In this document: piece by piece, positions 6,668 through 20,671 of the stretch
How positions within the stretch are numbered: position 1 is the stretch's first letter
How the letters are laid out: every line of letters starts with the position of its first letter
Source: Chrysochromulina parva
Taxonomy: Eukaryota; Haptophyta; Prymnesiales; Chrysochromulinaceae
Assembly: GCA_002887195.1 (NCBI GenBank)
Contig: PJAB01000791.1
Span: 1-20,671 of the forward strand
Length of the DNA: 20,671 nt
Reading direction: 5' to 3'
The notes under the pieces: generated by a model
The model's input: only the letters and a program-made list of their open reading frames with translations
The model's database searches: none
Told to the model about the DNA's origin: nothing
Position numbers and translations under genes: made by a program

Positions 6668-9600
6668 TCACTGCCGCCTGTCGCAGTGGAGCCGCCTGGC
6701 GAGTCGCGCGCGTTCGGCGGCCATGTTGGCACGCGCCGCTCCCTCGAGCTCCGCCGCGCCCTCCGCTGAGAAGTAGAGGCGCTCGTGCGCCAGGTAGGAG
6801 GAGAGGAAGCCCGTGCGCCCCTCGAGCCAGCGATCGAGCGGGGCCCACGCGTACTCGAGGCGCACCTGCATGCCAGCTCATCAGAGCTCATCAGGGTGGG
6901 ATGCAGGCACGTACTCGAGGCACACCTGGCCATCAGTGGCCATCAGTGGCCATCAGTGGCCATCAGTGGCCATCAGTGGCCATCAGATGCATGCGCAGAC
7001 TCGAGGCGCACCTGGCGCGCGTATTCCGCATAGGCATTCGGGGGCAACCCCAGCACCGCAATATCGGCGTCCAAAAAGTGCGCCAGATCCGCCTTCGCTT
7101 CGCCTTTGAAGTGCGTCGCCGTCCGTTCGATGAGCGCGGCGACGATGTCCACGTCGTCGGGCGAGAGGTTCGTCGCTGTGCCTGATGAGGGAGGTCATCA
7201 GAGGTCATCAGAGGTCATCAGAGGTCATCAGAGGTCATCAGAGAGGTCGGGCGAGAGTTTCGTCGCTGTGCCTGATGAGGGAGGTCATCAGAGGTCATCA
7301 GAGGTCATCAGAGGTCATCAGAGGTCATCAGAGAGGTCGGGCGAGAGTTTCGTCGCGCATGCACCAAAGCGTCGCCACATTTCGGCAGATCGCATCTCGT
7401 TGTGCGAGGCGCTCGGGTCGTAGACGGCATCATGAAAGAACGCGGCCAGCTTGACGAGCAGCGGGCGCTGCAGCAGGCCACGGGCTTCGAGGGCTTCGAT
7501 GCGAGCCAGCAGCGCCTTCACGTGCTCCATCGAGTGGTACCTGATTAGTGACGCAATCAGAGGACATCAGAGGTCATCAGAGGCCATCATAGGCCATCAG
7601 AGGCGATCAGAGGTCATCTGAGGTCATCCGAGAACATCAGTGGGGTCATCGGAGGTCATCTGAGGGGTCATCAGAGGTCATCCGCAACCATCAGCGGCAA
7701 TCACGTACCAGCGGCAGGCTGAGCACAGCTCATCGCACAGGGTGCCCCACCAGCGTGAAGCGTGCGCCGCCCCGACGCCCGCGGACACGCAGAGAGCGTA
7801 AAACTGCCCCGCAGTCGAGTGCAACGGTTGCATGCGCAGCAAGCACTGACGCCGTCGGCGCGCGCCCTCGAGCGCCGTCGCGAGCTGCTGACGTGTCGCC
7901 TCCTCGCTGAACGCAGACGAGAGGGGCACATGTGCGCGCGCGAGGCGCTGCTCAGCCGTCATCTGCTTAGCTATCCGTGCCTCCGCTTGCTCGGTCGAGA
8001 GGCCATTACCTGATGACAGACGCAATCAGAATGCAATCAGAATGCAATCAGAATGCAATCAGAATGCAATCAGCCTGCAATCAGAGGCAATTACGGCTAG
8101 CGAGTCGCTCGAGGACGGCGGGGTGGCTCGCGCTGATGACCCAGACTTCGTCCACCATCGCGTCCCACTGGGCTTCGAGAAGGACGGCCGCCTCCATGAC
8201 CACCACCTGGGCCTTGGACGCGGCAATCTTCGCGGCCGCGAGAGCCGCAGTCGCGGGCCACACGATGTCGGTGAGGCGCTTCATGTTGGCTCCGCCATCT
8301 TCTTGAAAGACGAGCGCGCCGAGCGCTTTCCGATCGATCGTGCCATCCGCGCTCACAATCGCGTTGCCGAATGCGGCCACCAGCGCCGCAAACGGGGGAG
8401 TACCGGGCTGGTATGCCTCGTGTGCGAGCAAATCGCAATCGATCGCCTCGAGCCAGCCGCCACCGGCGCCGCCGTCGATGGCGCCAGCAGCTGCCATCTC
8501 GCCCGCGAGCTCAGCAGCAGATGCCATCTCGCCCGCGAGCTCAACGAGCATCTTGCGCGCGGTCGACTTTCCCGACGCGATCCCGCCCGTCAGCCCGATG
8601 ACGTACGGACCATGTTCGGGAGTGCGCCGGCACCTGATGAAAGATGCAATCAACATGCAATCAGCGTGCAATCAGCATGCAATCAACATGCAATCAGCAT
8701 GCACTCAGCATGCACTCAGCATGCACTCAGCATGCAATCAGTATGCAATCAGCATACAATCAGCATGCACTCAGCATGTTCGAAAGTGCGCCGGCACCAG
8801 TGACGTTCCAGTCCGAGACGTGAGCCTCGGAGCTGTGCGAGCTGCGCGCGCCGTGCGTCCGTGGAGCTCACCTGAGGGACAGGGCGCTGTGGTGAGCACT
8901 TGCATGCAAGGCGAGCGCGCCGTGCGTCCGTGCAGCTCACCTTGTCCTCCTCGGCCGCCGCCGCCACCGCCGCTGCCGCCGCCGCCGCGCCGACAGCCGA
9001 GGACGCGGGCGGCGCGGGCGGCGCGTCCGCCACGAGCGGCATCGTGATGACCCTCAACGGGGGAAGGACCAGCCCGTCGGAATGGGCACCCTGCGCACGC
9101 TTGGCATTGCATGCGGCGCCACCCGATGCCGTCTCTGCCGATACGACGATCGCCTCGAGAGCGCCGTCGCGGGTGGCGGGGCCGTATCCGTCCTGAGGAG
9201 GCAATCAGCATGCACTCAGAGATGCAACCACACGCCCATCCTCCTCATCAGAGCTCATCAGAGCTCATCAGAGCTCATCAGAGCTCATCAGAGCTCATCA
9301 GAGCTCATCAGCGCTCATCAGCGCTCATCAGCGCTCATCAGCGCTCATCAGCGCTCATCGGCGCCCGGCAGAGCGGCCATCATCAGCGGCCATCATCAGC
9401 GTTCATCATCAGCGGCCATCATCAGCGGCCATCATCAGCGACCATCAGCGGCCATCAGCGGCCATCAGCGACCATCAGCGGCCATCATCAGCGGCCATCA
9501 TCAGCGGCCCTCCGAGCGGCTTGATCTGTGAACGTTCACAGACCTGCAGAGCACTCAGCTCGAGCTTGATCGATGGCTTGATCGAGTGTACGAAGTCGTC

Positions 9601-16087: not shown

Positions 16088-19000
16088 ATGCCGGCGGCGG
16101 CGGCCACCACCGCGACGGCATGGGCGGCGCCAGCTGCCGCCGTGACAACGAGGGCGATGCCATGGCAGCGACGCGTTGTGCACATGAAGGCCGTCGCGTC
16201 CTCGGCACTCGCATCTGGTGCTTGGGAGATCCGCATGGGAGATCCGCCCGCCCTCGCCGCCATCAAACGCCTTGTTGGACTTGATGAGCTCAAGAGACAT
16301 GCGCAGGAGCTGACGGACGCGGTTGCGCTCGAGCGCGAGCGCGGCGACGATCCGAAGCAGAAACCTCTCTCGATGGTGCTCACGGGCAACCCCGGCACCG
16401 GTAAGCCCCGCTCGCCCAGCATGCAAGTGCTCACCACGGCGCCCTTCCGATGGTCTTGACGGGTGACCCCGGCACCGGCCATTCCCTCTTCGGGGGGGCA
16501 TGGCTCGCCCAGCATGCAAGTGCTCACCACGGCGCGCCCCTCCCCTCCCCACAGGCAAGTCGCTCTACGCAGCCCTCTACGCGGAGCTCCTCGGCGAGCT
16601 GCATGCAAGTGCTCACCACGGCGCGCCCCTCCCCTCCCCACAGGCAAGTCGCTCTATGCAGCCCTCTACGCGGAGCTCCTCGGCGAGCTACAGCTGCTTC
16701 CACAGGGGCGCGTGGTGCGCGTCACGGGTGCGCAGCTGCAGGACGGCGGCGTCGAGGGCCTCGAGAAGCTCTTTGAGATGTTCGACGCGCCTGGTAATGG
16801 AACGCTGCAGGTGGGCAAGCTGGCCGAGGCGCGGCTCCGGCGCGGCTGATTGCATGCTGATTGCATGCTTATTGCATGCTAATTGCAAGCAGGTGGGCAA
16901 GCTGGCCGAGGCGCGGCTCCGGCGCGGCTGATGACTGCTTATGACGGCTAATGACGGCTGATGATGGCAAGCCGAGCGAGGCGCGGCTGATGATGGCAAG
17001 CCGAGCGAGGCGCGGCTGATGATGGCCTCCCTTATTTGGTTGGATTGCTTCCTTCATCAGCGCCAGAGCTACGATGGCCTCGCTCATTAGGTTGGATTGC
17101 TTCCTTCATCAGGTGGGTGACACGGTGGAGGCGCGGCGCGAGGGCACGTGGGGCCACATCGGACGGATCGTCCATCACTGCACTCGGACCGATGCGCGGT
17201 CGCCCTATCGCGACACGTACGACGTGCACTTCGGGGCACAGGTGAGCTTCTGACTACTTACTGATTGCATGCTGATTGCATGCTGACTGCGTACGGCGTG
17301 CACTTCGGGGCACAGGTGAGCTTCGCACTCTCCAACGGCTCAACGATCACCCGCCGGGATCACGACTTCGACATCGGAGTGCGTCGCAAGGACCTTCGGG
17401 CGCGTGATGACACTGGCGGCGTCCTTCTCGTAGACGATGCGCATCAGGTGATGACCTCTGATGGCCGTTTGATCGCCTATGATGACCCCTGCTTGCCAAT
17501 CGGAGTGCCATCGATTCTTCTCGCGGACGATCCTAATTATGACTCTCATCGGTCTCGCGGACGATCCTAATTATGACTCTCATCGATGCTTCTCGCGGAC
17601 GATGCCATCAGCTCGAGCCCGCTGACAAGGGAGCCCAGCATGCAAGTGCTCACCACGGCGCCCCGCCCTGCCCTCTTCACAGCTCGAGCCCTCGGACAAG
17701 GGAGCCAAGCGAGTGCTCTACCAGCTGACAGAGGAGATGGACAAGCGAGGGGGCAGGCTCGCGCTCGTGCTCGCAGGTAAACTGATGAACCCTGCTGATG
17801 ACCCCGGCTGATGACCCCGGCTGATGACCCCGGCTGATGACCCCGGCTGATGACCCCGGCTGGTGACCCCTTCTGATGACCCCGGCTGATGACCCCGGCT
17901 GATGATAACGGAGGACGCGGCTCGCGCTCGTGCTCGCTATGAGAAGCCCATGTTTGAGGAGTACCCGAACCCGAATTGCCCTAATTGCCCTAATTGCCCT
18001 AATTGCCCCTAATTGCCCCTAATTGCCCCTAGTTGCCCCTAATTGCCCTAATTGCCCGTGCTCGCAGGGTATGAGAAGCCCATGTTTGAGGAGTTGCTCC
18101 CGTTCAACAACGGCGCCCTCGGGAGCCGAATCCGGCGGCGCTTTGCCCTGTCCGACTTTAGTGATGACGAGCTCATCAAGCTCCTCGAGTTTCGTCTGGG
18201 CCTGACGAAGCCGTCGTACCGGCTGAGCGATGGCCGGTACGCGCGCGCCGCCGCGCGTCGTCTCGGCAAGGGGCGCGGCAACGTGGGCTTCGCGAATGCT
18301 CGAGCGATCGAGAGTCTAGTCGAGCTGACCGCCGAGAGGCAGACGGCGCGCGTGCTCGCCGAGCGCCGTGCCGGCGCCCAGCCGGACATTTTCCGCATCG
18401 AGCGTGCGGACTTACTCGGCGCGCCGCCGCGCCTTCTCGAGCCGGAGACGAGCGCGCCGTTGCGGGCGCTGCGCCAGATGGAGGGGCTGCAACAGGTCAA
18501 AGCGTCGGTCGACAGCCTTCTCAAGCTAGCGGAGTCGAATGCGGCGCGCGAAGAGATGGAGCTGCCGCCGCTTGAGGTGATTGCCACTGATGACCTCTGA
18601 TGAAGAGATGGAGCTGCCGCCGCTTGAGGGGATTGCCACTGATGACTTCTGATTTCCTCTGATGCCCTTTGAGTGGCCTTTGATCGCCTTAATTGCGTCT
18701 TCGTGTGCGATCCTGGCACCCCCGGCATGCAAGTGCTCATGACGGCGCGGCGCACCTCACAGGTGAGCCTCAATCGCGTCTTCGTGGGCAACCCGGGTAC
18801 CGGTAAGACGACCGTCGCCAAGCTGTACGGACAGATCTTGCGCGAGCTCGGGCTGCTCTCAAAGGGTGAGATTGTGCTCTCGCGAGATTGTGCTCTCTCG
18901 AGATTGTGCTCTCGCGAGATTGTGCTCTCGCGAGATTGTGCTCTCGCGAGATTGTGCTCTCGCGAGATTGTGCTCTCGCGAGATTGTGCTCTCGCGAGAT

Positions 19001-20671
19001 TGTGCTCTCGCGACACCCGTGGACTTGATTGCTTCTGAGTGCCTCTGATTGCTGCTTGCCTCTGAGTGGCTCCCTCATTGCATGCAGGTGATGTTGTGCT
19101 CGCGACGCCGGCGGACCTCATCGGATCAGCTCTCGGCCAGTCCGAGGAGAAGACCAACGCGCTGCTTGACAAGGCGCTCGGCTGTGTGCTCGTCATTGAC
19201 GAAGCGTACGGGCTCGATCCGCTTAGTAGCTTTGGAGGACCCGGCGGCGGCGGTGGCGCATCGGGAGATCCGTTTAAGACGGCAGTCATCAACACCCTCG
19301 TCTCGCGCGTGCAAGTGCGCTGATGGCCACTAACTGCCTCTCCGAGTGCCTCTCTGATGATCGCTAATTGCGAGTGCCTCTTTGATGACCACTGATTGCG
19401 AGTGCCTCTTTGATGACCGCGATTTGCGAGTGCCTCGTCACGCGCGCATGCAGCCAGGGCGATGCGGGAGCGGACCGGTGATTGCCCCTGATTGCCACTG
19501 ATTGCCACTGATGGCCACTGATGGCCTCCCTGCCCCGTTGCATGCAGGGCGATGCGGGAGCGGACCGGTGATTGCCTCTGATTGCCTCTGATTGCATCTG
19601 ATTGCCACTGATTGCCACTGATTGCCATTGATGACCTGCCTCGTTGCATGCAGGGCGATGCGGGAGCAGACCGGTGCGTCCTTTTGCTTGGCTATCGTAA
19701 TGAGATGGAGTCGATGCTGCGCCGCGGCAACCCCGGGCTCGCGCGCCGCTTTCAGCTCGACAAGGCGTTCATCTTCGACGACTACGATGACGAGGCTCTG
19801 CTGCGCATCCTGCTGCGGAACGTCGAACGTCGTGGCAAGACGATCGCGCCCGAGACGGCGCGGCTGGTGGTCCAGCAGGTGATTGCCGCTGATTGCAGGC
19901 TGATTGCATGCTGATTGCCTCCCTCATCACACGGCTGGTGGTCCAGCAGGACCTTGCACGCGCTCGCCTTCGTCCCAATTTTGGCAACGCGGGTGCGGTC
20001 GACAATAGCGTTTCGTCAGCGGTGCTGCGTGCAGAGGCGCGGCTCGAAGCCCTGCCAGCCGAGATACGCGCCTCGCAGACGGAGCTGCTGATCTCCGACT
20101 TTGTGATCGAGAAGCCGCACGTGACCGACCCTTCGATCATCTTCGACGGTCTCATTGGGTGCGCTGCCCTCTGAGCGCCATCAGAGTGCCATCAGAGTGC
20201 CTTCTGACTGCCCTCTGATTGCCACTTTGAGTGCCTCTGACAAGGGGCGTGATTGCAACCGCACGTGATGCGATGCCATCAAGGCTCGGCTGCCTGAGCC
20301 CCACGCATGCACGTGCTCATCACGGCGCTCCTTCTCCCCACAGGTGCGATGCCATCAAGGCTCGGCTGACAGAGTACCAAGTGGTCATGCAGGCAGCCAA
20401 GGCCGCCGGCCGGAACCCGATCGATGATCTCGCACTCACGTTTGCGTTCCAAGGGAGCCCGGGGACAGGTGTGACGGCCGTTACGTCTGATTACGTCTGA
20501 TTGCGGCTGATTACGTTTGATTGCGGCTCATTGCGGCTCATTGCTACCCATACTAACGTTGATGACGTCTGATGGCGCCCCTCCTCCTCAGGCAAGACGA
20601 CCGTTGCTCGTCGTATGGGGATGCTCTTCGAGGCGCTCGGCGTGCTCCCCTCCGCCGACGTGGTGCAGGTG
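16088..20671 (+). CDS. Multi-AAA CbbX/CfxQ-family ATPase with Tudor-like insert, 3' end outside window
   Basis: Twelve exons: 16088-16400, 16644-16810, 17113-17241, 17316-17447, 17683-17776, 18068-18576, 18763-18865, 19088-19314, 19654-19878, 19950-20158, 20344-20468, 20592->20671; all phases agree and 771 residues lie in the window. The start is uncertain (ATG 16088, or 16235 just before the conserved region). AAA1: [14 protein letters not shown], Walker A NPGTGKS (about 101-107), Walker B LLVDDAHQ with Asp-Asp in place of Asp-Glu, then LAGYEKPM and SRIRRRF. Between Walker A and B lies a Tudor/agenet-like insert of about 75 residues ([30 protein letters not shown]). AAA2: NPGTGKTT (about 458-465), [29 protein letters not shown]3: [20 protein letters not shown], continuing off the edge. 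The family includes the Rubisco activase CbbX, which has one AAA domain; this larger protein is a distant relative whose substrate is unknown. Confidence 0.88.
16401..16643 (+). repeat. Multi-AAA intron 1 with 89-bp tandem duplication and three element copies
   Basis: Phase 1, 243 nt, splits Walker A (NPGTG|KS). The element core occurs at 16420-16434, 16513-16527 and 16602-16616. An 89-bp unit at 16513-16601 is repeated at 16602-16690, carrying element, pyrimidine tract, acceptor and about 50 nt of exon 2. A diverged copy of the upstream exon end (GACGGGTGACCCCGGCACCG) lies at about 16457-16476. Use of the first acceptor would shift the frame, since 89 is not a multiple of 3. Confidence 0.85.
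16811..17112 (+). repeat. Multi-AAA intron 2, nested duplications
   Basis: Phase 0, 302 nt, joins GNGTLQ to [11 protein letters not shown]. About 40 nt starting at CAGGTGGGCAAGCTGGCC are present at 16808 and again at about 16890. GCAAGCCGAGCGAGGCGCGG is doubled at about 16967-17020, and GGTTGGATTGCTTCCTTCAT is doubled before the true acceptor (about 17037 and 17089). TGATTGCATGC-type units fill about 16850-16890. The exon start VGDTVEAR itself resembles the intron-initial VGKLAEAR reading. Confidence 0.75.
17242..17315 (+). other. Multi-AAA intron 3, cleanest AG|GT duplication intron
   Basis: Phase 0, exactly 74 nt. A 35-nt segment at 17216-17250 (one mismatch) recurs at 17290-17324, offset 74 nt, the intron length. 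Both copies contain GGGGCACAGGTGAGCTTC; the first supplies the donor, the second the acceptor. The unique middle is CTGATTGCATG-type repeats. Confidence 0.9.
17448..17682 (+). repeat. Multi-AAA intron 4 holding a copy of the unsplit exon junction
   Basis: Phase 0, 235 nt, joins LLVDDAHQ to [11 protein letters not shown] 35-bp segment containing GGACGATCCTAATTATGACT is doubled at about 17523-17584. At 17589-17636 lies a copy of exon 4 end fused directly to exon 5 start (CTTCTCGCGGACGATGCCAT then CAGCTCGAGCCC). The element core follows at 17639-17653, 29 nt before the acceptor. Confidence 0.85.
17777..18067 (+). repeat. Multi-AAA intron 5, two arrays around a copy of the unsplit junction
   Basis: Phase 1, 291 nt, joins LVLAG to [10 protein letters not shown]. 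About nine 13-bp units (CTGATGACCCCGG) occupy 17783-17905. A contiguous copy of exon 5 end plus exon 6 start lies at 17919-17961 (GGCTCGCGCTCGTGCTCGC then TATGAGAAGCCC). An array of 9-10 bp units (AATTGCCCT, AATTGCCCCT) runs 17977-18057. Confidence 0.85.
18577..18762 (+). repeat. Multi-AAA intron 6, 52-bp duplication of exon end plus element
   Basis: Phase 0, 186 nt, joins EMELPPLE to VSLNRVFVG. The 52 bp from 18550 are repeated from 18602, carrying GAAGAGATGGAGCTGCCGCC and the following intron start. A diverged copy of exon 7 start lies at 18688-18725 (reads [12 protein letters not shown] versus [12 protein letters not shown]). The element variant CATGCAAGTGCTCAT is at 18726-18740. Confidence 0.85.
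18866..19087 (+). repeat. Multi-AAA intron 7, nine-copy 16-bp array derived from exon 8 start
   Basis: Phase 1, 222 nt, joins LLSKG to [10 protein letters not shown]. The unit GAGATTGTGCTCTCGC occurs nine times at 18868-19011. The unit and the sequence after it (GCGACACCCGTGGACTTGAT) match exon 8 start (GTGATGTTGTGCTCGCGACG then CGGACCTCAT), so the array grew from a copied exon fragment. The acceptor TTGCATGCAG ends at 19087. Confidence 0.9.
19315..19653 (+). repeat. Multi-AAA intron 8 with two exon 9 start copies
   Basis: Phase 0, 339 nt, joins INTLVSRVQ to [14 protein letters not shown]. Copies of the acceptor and exon start (CATGCAG then GGCGATGCGGGAGCGGACCG) lie at about 19446-19480 and 19540-19570; the used one begins at 19654. 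Between them are CTGATTGCCA, CTGATGGCCA and GAGTGCCTCT units. Confidence 0.85.
19879..19949 (+). other. Multi-AAA intron 9, duplication of the exon 9 end
   Basis: Phase 0, 71 nt. CGGCTGGTGGTCCAGCAG ends exon 9 (19861-19878) and recurs at 19932-19949 immediately before exon 10, offset 71 nt, the intron length. The middle is GCTGATTGCAGGCTGATTGC. Confidence 0.9.
20159..20343 (+). repeat. Multi-AAA intron 10 with exon 11 start copy and element
   Basis: Phase 2, 185 nt, joins FDGLIG to [31 protein letters not shown] at 20269-20288 is repeated at 20345-20364 in the exon. The element variant CATGCACGTGCTCAT is at 20306-20320, before TTCTCCCCACAG. GAGTGCC-type short repeats fill the first part. Confidence 0.85.
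20469..20591 (+). repeat. Multi-AAA intron 11 with TGATTRCG array
   Basis: Phase 1, 123 nt, splits Walker A of the third AAA domain ([13 protein letters not shown]). The intron start GTGTGACGGCCGTTACG is a diverged match to exon 12 start GCAAGACGACCGTTGC. The body is CTGATTACGT and CTGATTGCGG units, and a TACTAAC sequence at about 20552-20558 is a textbook branch-point match. Confidence 0.85.

Follow-up and report, generated by a model that had tools for sequence, protein, structure and literature searches.

How did a predicted intron come to lie between two nearly identical 35-nt segments, so placed that its removal leaves the reading frame open? The question is raised by a 20,671-nt stretch of DNA from the haptophyte Chrysochromulina parva (assembly GCA_002887195.1, contig PJAB01000791.1, positions 1-20,671 of the forward strand; hereafter the window, GC content 63.6%). 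The intron (17242-17315, plus strand, 74 nt) is the third predicted in a gene for a CbbX/SpoVK-like AAA ATPase, which occupies 16235-20671 on the same strand, with the first ATG taken as its start and the 3' end cut off by the end of the contig. The first-pass annotation had described it as exactly one tandem duplication of an exon segment containing AGGT. We consider it likely that 17242-17315 is instead a spliceosomal intron, formed when a 39-nt piece of dispersed filler entered an exon that had been uninterrupted, with duplication of 35 nt of the target. At the sequence level, this is supported by the repeat-filler-repeat structure, the recurrence of the filler, the register of AG and GT in the repeats and the conservation of the protein across the seams in the AAA gene. 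Splicing is predicted, and we infer both the polarity of the gain and the nature of the repeats as target duplications; the locus would then be best read as an introner-like insertion with long and variable target duplications of about 12-41 nt.

Repeat-filler-repeat structure of intron 3

A direct repeat indeed surrounds the intron. As the first-pass annotation had reported, positions 17216-17250 (t1, plus strand) and 17290-17324 (t2, plus strand) are identical in 34 of 35 nt at an offset of 74, and the motif CACAG|GTGAGC can be read in both copies. The first copy consists of the last 26 nt of the exon and the first 9 nt of the intron and carries the donor; the second consists of the last 26 nt of the intron and the first 9 nt of the next exon and carries the acceptor. 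AGGT stands in register at 17240-17243 and 17314-17317. When segments were scored with +1/-2 at offsets of 40-300, this repeat reached 32; when the whole window was shuffled 20 times with its dinucleotides kept, no segment scored above 14, which rules out a chance origin.

The description of the intron as a single duplication, however, was wrong, as the exon repeat accounts for only 35 of its 74 nt. Between the two copies lie 39 nt (17251-17289, plus strand) with the sequence TGACTACTTACTGATTGCATGCTGATTGCATGCTGACTG, an array of CTGAY units that is not derived from the exon and belongs to a filler family that we call A. CTGAY units resemble the branch-point consensus, and the array offers candidate branch points. 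Similar arrays were also seen on other contigs. Since this non-exonic array separates the copies, intron 3 is a repeat-filler-repeat structure and not one duplication. The model of Rogers, a pure tandem duplication of an AGGT-containing exon segment, would explain the register of AG|GT in both copies, but it requires the whole intron to be a copy of the flanking exon, whereas 39 of the 74 nt are non-exonic and of a kind found at many loci.

Predicted splicing of all 11 introns of the gene gives a single open frame of 752 amino acids (taking the second of two duplicated acceptors at intron 1, with the intron extending to 16643), and the removal of intron 3 leaves this frame open. A homolog search with 722 residues gave 1586 proteins. 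Of the 120 listed, whose source names provided the family name, six were aligned (P0001-P0005 and P0008). P0001, P0002 and P0003 (68-72% identical) align without gaps through the intron-3 junction, where VHFGAQ|VSFALSNG corresponds to VHFGAMVKFQLANG in P0001 and the exon part VSF aligns to V-K-F in all three. P0004 is gapless there as well, P0005 is gapped across the junction, and P0008 is too diverged at this point to judge. Because of this gapless alignment, the nine bases 3' of intron 3 look like old coding sequence. The intron-9 junction is likewise contiguous with P0001-P0003. P0001 and P0003 comprise 1105 and 1036 amino acids on contigs of 3960 and 3494 bases, genomic or transcript-derived, which leave little room for introns. 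At the sequence level, the open frame, the gapless homolog alignment and the in-register repeats would fit seamless splicing of the predicted introns.

Filler families and flanking repeats across the genome

The filler of intron 3 recurs throughout the 45-Mb assembly. Family A comprises CTGAY arrays, several of which end in CCTCCCTCATCAG; its doubled unit, CTGATTGCATG, has 184 exact copies, and the reversed control has none. A second family, M, consists of GCATGCAAGTGCTCACCACGGCGC followed by a pyrimidine stretch and usually ends in CACAG, the composition of a 3'-splice-site cassette. Its 24-mer core is present in 364 exact copies and in 1531 copies with at most two mismatches, again with none for the reversed control. 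Both families thus occur in many near-identical copies across the genome, as introners do. We note that no exact copy of the doubled A unit was listed before C140, while M occurs from C5 on; perhaps arrays interrupt the assembly, or some regions are free of them. The M core was also found, as an exact copy together with a short array and a 39-nt repeat (92% identity, offset 78), at the end of a phage-like IMG/VR contig (L073:4230-4554). This end is probably a chimera with algal DNA, which would place the element in an environmental sample.

Predicted introns were collected with a home-made gene finder from two samples: a systematic one (19 contigs chosen by rank, each represented by its first 10 kb; 190 kb, 63 introns) and an enriched one (the window and loci fetched for their similarity to the focal array; 73 kb, 70 introns). 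Both are biased, the systematic one towards longer contigs. Introns longer than 900 nt or with a flanking exon shorter than 40 nt were dropped, leaving 133 of 158 (the same exclusion left 125 of 151 in an earlier gene-finder list). The intron penalty of -10 was chosen by eye on the genes of the window, and a setting that over-predicted introns was dropped. The predicted introns coincided exactly with our rough hand coordinates in 1 of 11 cases and were off by 1-4 nt in the rest; borders outside the window are model-based. In these introns, the M core (at least 18 of 24 positions) was found in sense orientation in 12 of 133 and in antisense in 1 of 133. CTRAY motifs were biased to the sense strand in the systematic sample (71 sense, 35 antisense, 47 expected from shuffles) and in the enriched loci (284, 36 and 117, respectively).

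Intron 9 of the AAA gene and an intron of the COASY gene had been proposed to show the same arrangement as intron 3. The repeat-filler-repeat scheme is indeed common to all three, but the placement of the splice sites differs. Intron 9 (19879-19949, plus strand) has an exact 19-nt repeat (19861-19879 and 19932-19950, offset 71; 19861-19950 as a whole) around 52 nt of family A filler. The T of the donor GT lies outside the repeat, so the filler completes the donor, and the repeat holds the acceptor at its end. The COASY intron (8872-8940, minus strand), judged on the sequence of the window while the homolog comparison covered the AAA gene, has a 28-nt repeat with 27 identical positions (8915-8942 and 8846-8873, offset 69; 8846-8942 as a whole) around 41 nt of filler with an M cassette. 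Here the donor comes from the repeat and the acceptor lies at the end of the cassette, and AG takes up the two bases at the outer edge of the repeat, a position at which the splice consensus alone could match. In intron 3, AG|GT lies well inside the repeat, with 26 and 9 nt on either side. Both additional introns were scored by hand, as the gene model shortened intron 9 by 3 nt and listed the COASY intron only in its earlier version, the retrained model having changed there.

Of the 133 introns, 21 carry an in-register repeat at a score of at least 8, compared to 0.31 and 1.26 expected in the two samples. In these introns, one exon end recurs as a direct repeat at the far end of the intron, with filler in between, as in neointrons of the Daphnia type, and the repeat exceeds 12 nt in 16 of them (as it does at 11 of the 14 M loci discussed below), longer than the 4-12 bp of that type. 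Eight of the 21 have at least 11 nt of the repeat on the side of the first exon and at most 2 on the other; in these, the acceptor AG marks the end of the repeat, and filler begins at or just within GT, as in intron 9. Twelve have at most 4 nt on the side of the first exon; there, the repeat begins at the donor GT or close to it, with filler reaching AG, and the COASY intron is of this kind. Intron 3 is the sole one with at least 5 nt of repeat on both sides (26 and 9). Judged from their predicted borders, these three configurations are ways in which a repeat-filler-repeat structure would splice without a scar.

These counts also bear on the Rogers model. AG or GT lies outside the repeat in 14 of the 21 introns, and in six of the seven in which AG|GT falls formally within it, only 2-4 nt remain on one side, so that the consensus could match by itself. 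Local tandem duplication, which the model needs, is common (for example 16512-16689, and 83 non-array direct-repeat pairs in 223 kb), but over all non-array direct repeats AGGT was present 23 times, no more than the 23.1 expected. Furthermore, of the 203 bases compared between t1 and the M core only 25% agree with the exon, so that this stretch is not a decayed repeat. On these three grounds, we reject pure AGGT duplication, and the model as a whole, even if the middle of the intron was later altered by local microsatellite growth, seems quite improbable. What stands of the proposal that intron 3 reflects a recent gain is that its repeat is genuine, recurrent, in register with the splice sites and of the kind expected from such a gain. 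The proposed route does not stand, since more than half of the 74-nt unit is dispersed filler with branch-point-like motifs and AG or GT mostly lies outside the repeat.

Flanking repeats were then scored directly at 20 loci of each family, taken from printed places on longer contigs only. For M, every fifth of 100 printed places was used (one was replaced, being too near a contig end); for A, every second of 39 places hand-counted from 100, leaving out already fetched loci and not counting a few late ones on C824, C871 and C898. At the M loci, a direct repeat across the core scored at least 13 in 16 of 20 cases versus 11 of 380 swapped pairs, while the best inverted score among the 20 loci was 10. 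In AG/GT register, a score of at least 14 was found at 11 of 20 M loci versus 2 of 380 swaps, and with arrays masked at 10 of 20 versus 3 of 380. The corresponding values for A were 13 of 20 versus 20 of 380 (unmasked, score at least 16) and 12 of 20 versus 1 of 380 (arrays masked, score at least 12). Flanking repeats like the target duplications of introners are thus present at A and M loci, although they measure about 12-41 nt and some loci lack them. The locus L069 mirrors the focal configuration, with 37 identical nt, 17 and 20 nt of which lie on the two sides. At the 14 M loci reaching a score of 8, a weak threshold used here without a control, the predicted introns measure 45-95 nt, eight of them 73-83 nt. 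At the 16 A loci shown, the unspliced frame was open in none and the spliced frame in 10. As separate observations, the best in-register donor at L047, L048 and L051 is GC instead of GT, and at L044 a 47-nt repeat (offset 78) starts directly after the core, with the bases before both copies also in agreement. At L044, the M end and the exon look duplicated together, by ordinary tandem duplication rather than as a target duplication.

The M loci give some weight to another explanation, double-strand-break repair without a mobile element: the gaps at staggered ends would be filled, and intron DNA that is close by or abundant would be taken up, a route put forward for Daphnia. A and M would then be common merely as abundant intron pieces, of which only fillers with a branch point survive selection. 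Repeat lengths do vary, the 14 M loci have 0-34 nt of unrelated sequence ahead of the core, and terminal inverted repeats are absent (0 nt) at all 19 M copies with an acceptor, where they could be tested. On the other hand, the repeats described for Daphnia, as far as the relevant part of that report goes, are only 4-12 bp (PMC4202315), and 1531 copies of the M core with none reversed are more than random capture is expected to give. We regard this explanation, in both its parts, as possible and the most serious of the alternatives, yet less probable than insertion of a dispersed element.

The M copies reach the predicted 3' splice site and start shortly upstream of the putative branch point, which is what retro-insertion would produce if the 3' part of an excised intron RNA, from the branch point to AG, were copied into broken exon DNA. 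M and A would in that case be copies of lariat tails. Target-primed copying typically leaves target duplications of variable length, and the repeats seen here would fit this as well. The filler of intron 3, however, has no 3' end, and we consider this origin unlikely.

Paralogous sites and buried exon junctions

A 543-aa stretch of the AAA protein was searched against the same assembly; the sites of introns 6-9 correspond to residues 288, 322, 398 and 473. Matches on C111 (query residues 223-494), C687 (253-525) and C1778 (253-505) run uninterrupted through all four of these sites, with no stop and no extra length, and a match on C2172 (286-471) covers part of them. A second match on C111 (77-255) covers the sites of introns 4 and 5. 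As several paralogs lack introns 6-9, gain of these introns in the window gene appears to be a simpler reading than their loss in the paralogs. A further paralog, C1385:2914-5355, matches in several pieces and may hold introns of its own.

Some introns contain a copy of their own joined exons. A copy of the spliced exon junction with a score of at least 16 was found in 8 of 63 introns of the systematic sample and in 24 of 70 of the enriched one. In the controls, the inverted junction gave 0 of 63 and 0 of 70, distant exons 0 of 54 and 0 of 60, and junctions taken from other loci none in 1260 and 4 in 1400. Since all these controls are near zero, the copies are local and direct, and an inverted or distant-exon origin was rejected. 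We trust as joined-exon copies those in introns 1, 4 and 5 of the window and in L025:1570-1711. The other candidates were reread: L023, L029, L024:5400 and L025:393 were taken to hold border copies or short repeats of coding sequence, and L025:3488 and 19315-19653 of the window to be mixed or to hold repeated exon copies.

In intron 4 (17448-17682, plus strand), the joined exon ends are copied at about 17589-17655 with 92% identity, spanning the junction from -24 to +41, and the copy runs into an M cassette whose core starts at about 17638. Intron 5 (17777-18067, plus strand) contains two CTRAY arrays that flank a joined-exon copy at about 17919-17962; it spans the junction from -21 to +27, with all aligned bases identical and a short deletion at the junction itself. 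Arrays or cassettes lie on both sides of the copy in introns 4 and 5. Intron 1 (16401-16554 by the borders of the gene finder, plus strand) holds M cassettes and a decayed joined-exon copy at about 16448-16492 (80%).

Joined-exon copies in introns 1, 4 and 5 are expected from a once uninterrupted exon and speak against the view that the introns are old and that gene conversion or duplication across their borders created the repeats later. Border duplications do happen, since some internal copies run from exon into intron (L025:393, L024:5400), and the C1385 paralog may have an intron near the intron-9 site. However, the first nine exon bases after intron 3, aligned in P0001-P0003, are old coding sequence by the comparison above, so that conversion would have had to copy a sequence that already matched. 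We consider an old origin of these introns very unlikely.

Several observations weigh against insertion of a dispersed filler into an uninterrupted exon. The site of intron 3 (residue 43) is covered by no listed paralog match outside the window, and the preference for gain over loss at this intron is a deduction from the other evidence. The C1385 paralog matches in pieces, two of which (396-465 and 459-514) lie 64 nt apart, and it may therefore have an intron near the intron-9 site, about 8-14 residues off and not at it. Six of the 20 M loci have no in-register repeat of score 8, two of them for want of an acceptor, and the open-frame test gave no support at M loci, where the spliced frame was open in 9 of 11 and the unspliced frame in 8 of 11. 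The seven introns with AG|GT formally within the repeat are what the Rogers model wants, and the tandem copies of M and exon at 16512-16689 and L044 show that ordinary tandem duplication also occurs. In-register border repeats with a score of at least 12 are clearly rarer in the systematic sample (2 of 63, 0.00 expected) than at the loci chosen by their arrays (13 of 70, 0.04 expected). Finally, the target duplications published for introners are shorter and vary less than these repeats.

The remaining repeats of the AAA gene are of several kinds. At 16512-16689, an 89-nt unit consisting of an M cassette with acceptor and the start of the exon is present in tandem with 99% identity, giving two possible acceptors 89 nt apart. 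Intron 2 (16811-17112, plus strand) contains repeated CAG|GTGGG exon copies together with CTGAY arrays. At 18868-19013, within intron 7, the 16-nt unit GAGATTGTGCTCTCGC occurs about nine times and resembles the start of the next exon. In the first AAA domain (16401) and again in the third (20469), but not in the second, an intron lies at the same Walker A codon (GT|GK), a possible parallel gain.

Proposed mechanism and comparison with known systems

In the mechanism that we propose, a 39-nt, branch-point-bearing piece of dispersed filler would insert into the exon, and 35 nt of the target would be duplicated on both sides. Because the duplicated target contained CAG|GTGAGC, the first copy would become the donor and the second the acceptor, while the filler would provide the branch point, and the exon would regain its original sequence on splicing. 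The contribution of the repeat would depend on which of its ends coincides with a splice site: it could provide both sites, chiefly the acceptor or chiefly the donor. If a site were hit twice in succession, in the order suggested by the nested copies, and the target duplicated each time, a buried joined-exon copy would result.

The chemistry is the least certain part. Since the repeat length varies between about 12 and 41 nt, the likely route would be a break with a wide stagger, or target-primed copying, with both strands then filled in. As far as sequence can tell, this variable length, the variable sequence ahead of the M core and the lack of terminal inverted repeats speak against a transposase with a fixed stagger and for filled-in wide staggers or target-primed copying. 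Selection probably inflates the observed repeat lengths, since introns with a short filler would need long repeats to reach a spliceable size.

A bolder version of the proposal, to which we give an even chance, is that the families are mobile half-introns. Cassettes of 40-50 nt, with no more than a branch point, pyrimidines and a 3' AG or no more than a branch-point array, would spread through exons, and at each insertion a long duplicated piece of target, variable in length, would serve as the missing 5' half. Such introns would be half mobile element and half exon copy, with a length just above the splicing minimum (many are 68-75 nt), and repeated hits at one site would stack and bury copies of the uninterrupted exon.

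How new spliceosomal introns originate has long been asked, and a source has been identified in few cases (PMC4974935). Here, a likely source (two dispersed short families), a scar (about 12-41 nt) and buried joined-exon copies are all visible at the sequence level in one genome, so the order of events becomes readable and testable, with many candidate young insertions. If true, our reading would extend the introner concept beyond complete introns to include 3'-splice-site cassettes and would point to an insertion route other than short-stagger DNA transposition, one that would let new introns appear without altering the protein. We found no description of A or M families or of long target duplications for C. 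parva or C. tobin in the portions of the literature consulted, the supplementary family tables of Gozashti et al. being unchecked.

Several known systems share features with these introns. In tandem-duplication (AGGT) introns, as covered in the relevant part of PMC4974935, AG|GT also stands in register in two exon copies and the protein is unchanged; unlike them, more than half of intron 3 is not an exon copy, and AG or GT mostly lies outside or at the edge of the repeat. The staggered-break neointrons of Daphnia pulex, in the sections of PMC4202315 that describe them, likewise have filler in between, internal repeats and repeated rounds of insertion, but their repeats measure 4-12 bp, whereas here the repeats are mostly longer and the fillers form genome-wide families. 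Direct repeats at or near the borders of 213 introns, 4-30 bp long with a mean of 11.4 bp, were read as insertion scars in a survey that in this respect resembles our data; the part of it examined says nothing of dispersed filler families that are joined seamlessly and in register (PMC11782384). The introners of Amoebophrya have direct repeats of 3-5 nt in the corresponding part of PMC7789003.

The closest comparison is with introners as treated by Gozashti et al. (2022, PMC9860276). Their target duplications are 3-9 bp long, and the example from a Chrysochromulina sp. metagenome has 4 bp and carries its own 5' site; in contrast, the repeats here are about 12-41 nt long and differ between copies, and an M cassette accounts for no more than the 3' part of the intron. 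Terminal inverted repeats are not required in all introner families (PMC9860276). As in introners, many similar copies make introns whose splice sites come partly or wholly from the duplicated target, mostly seamlessly, and the modes of splice-site recruitment described for introners, with an own 3' site, an own 5' site or neither, match the configurations found here (PMC9860276).

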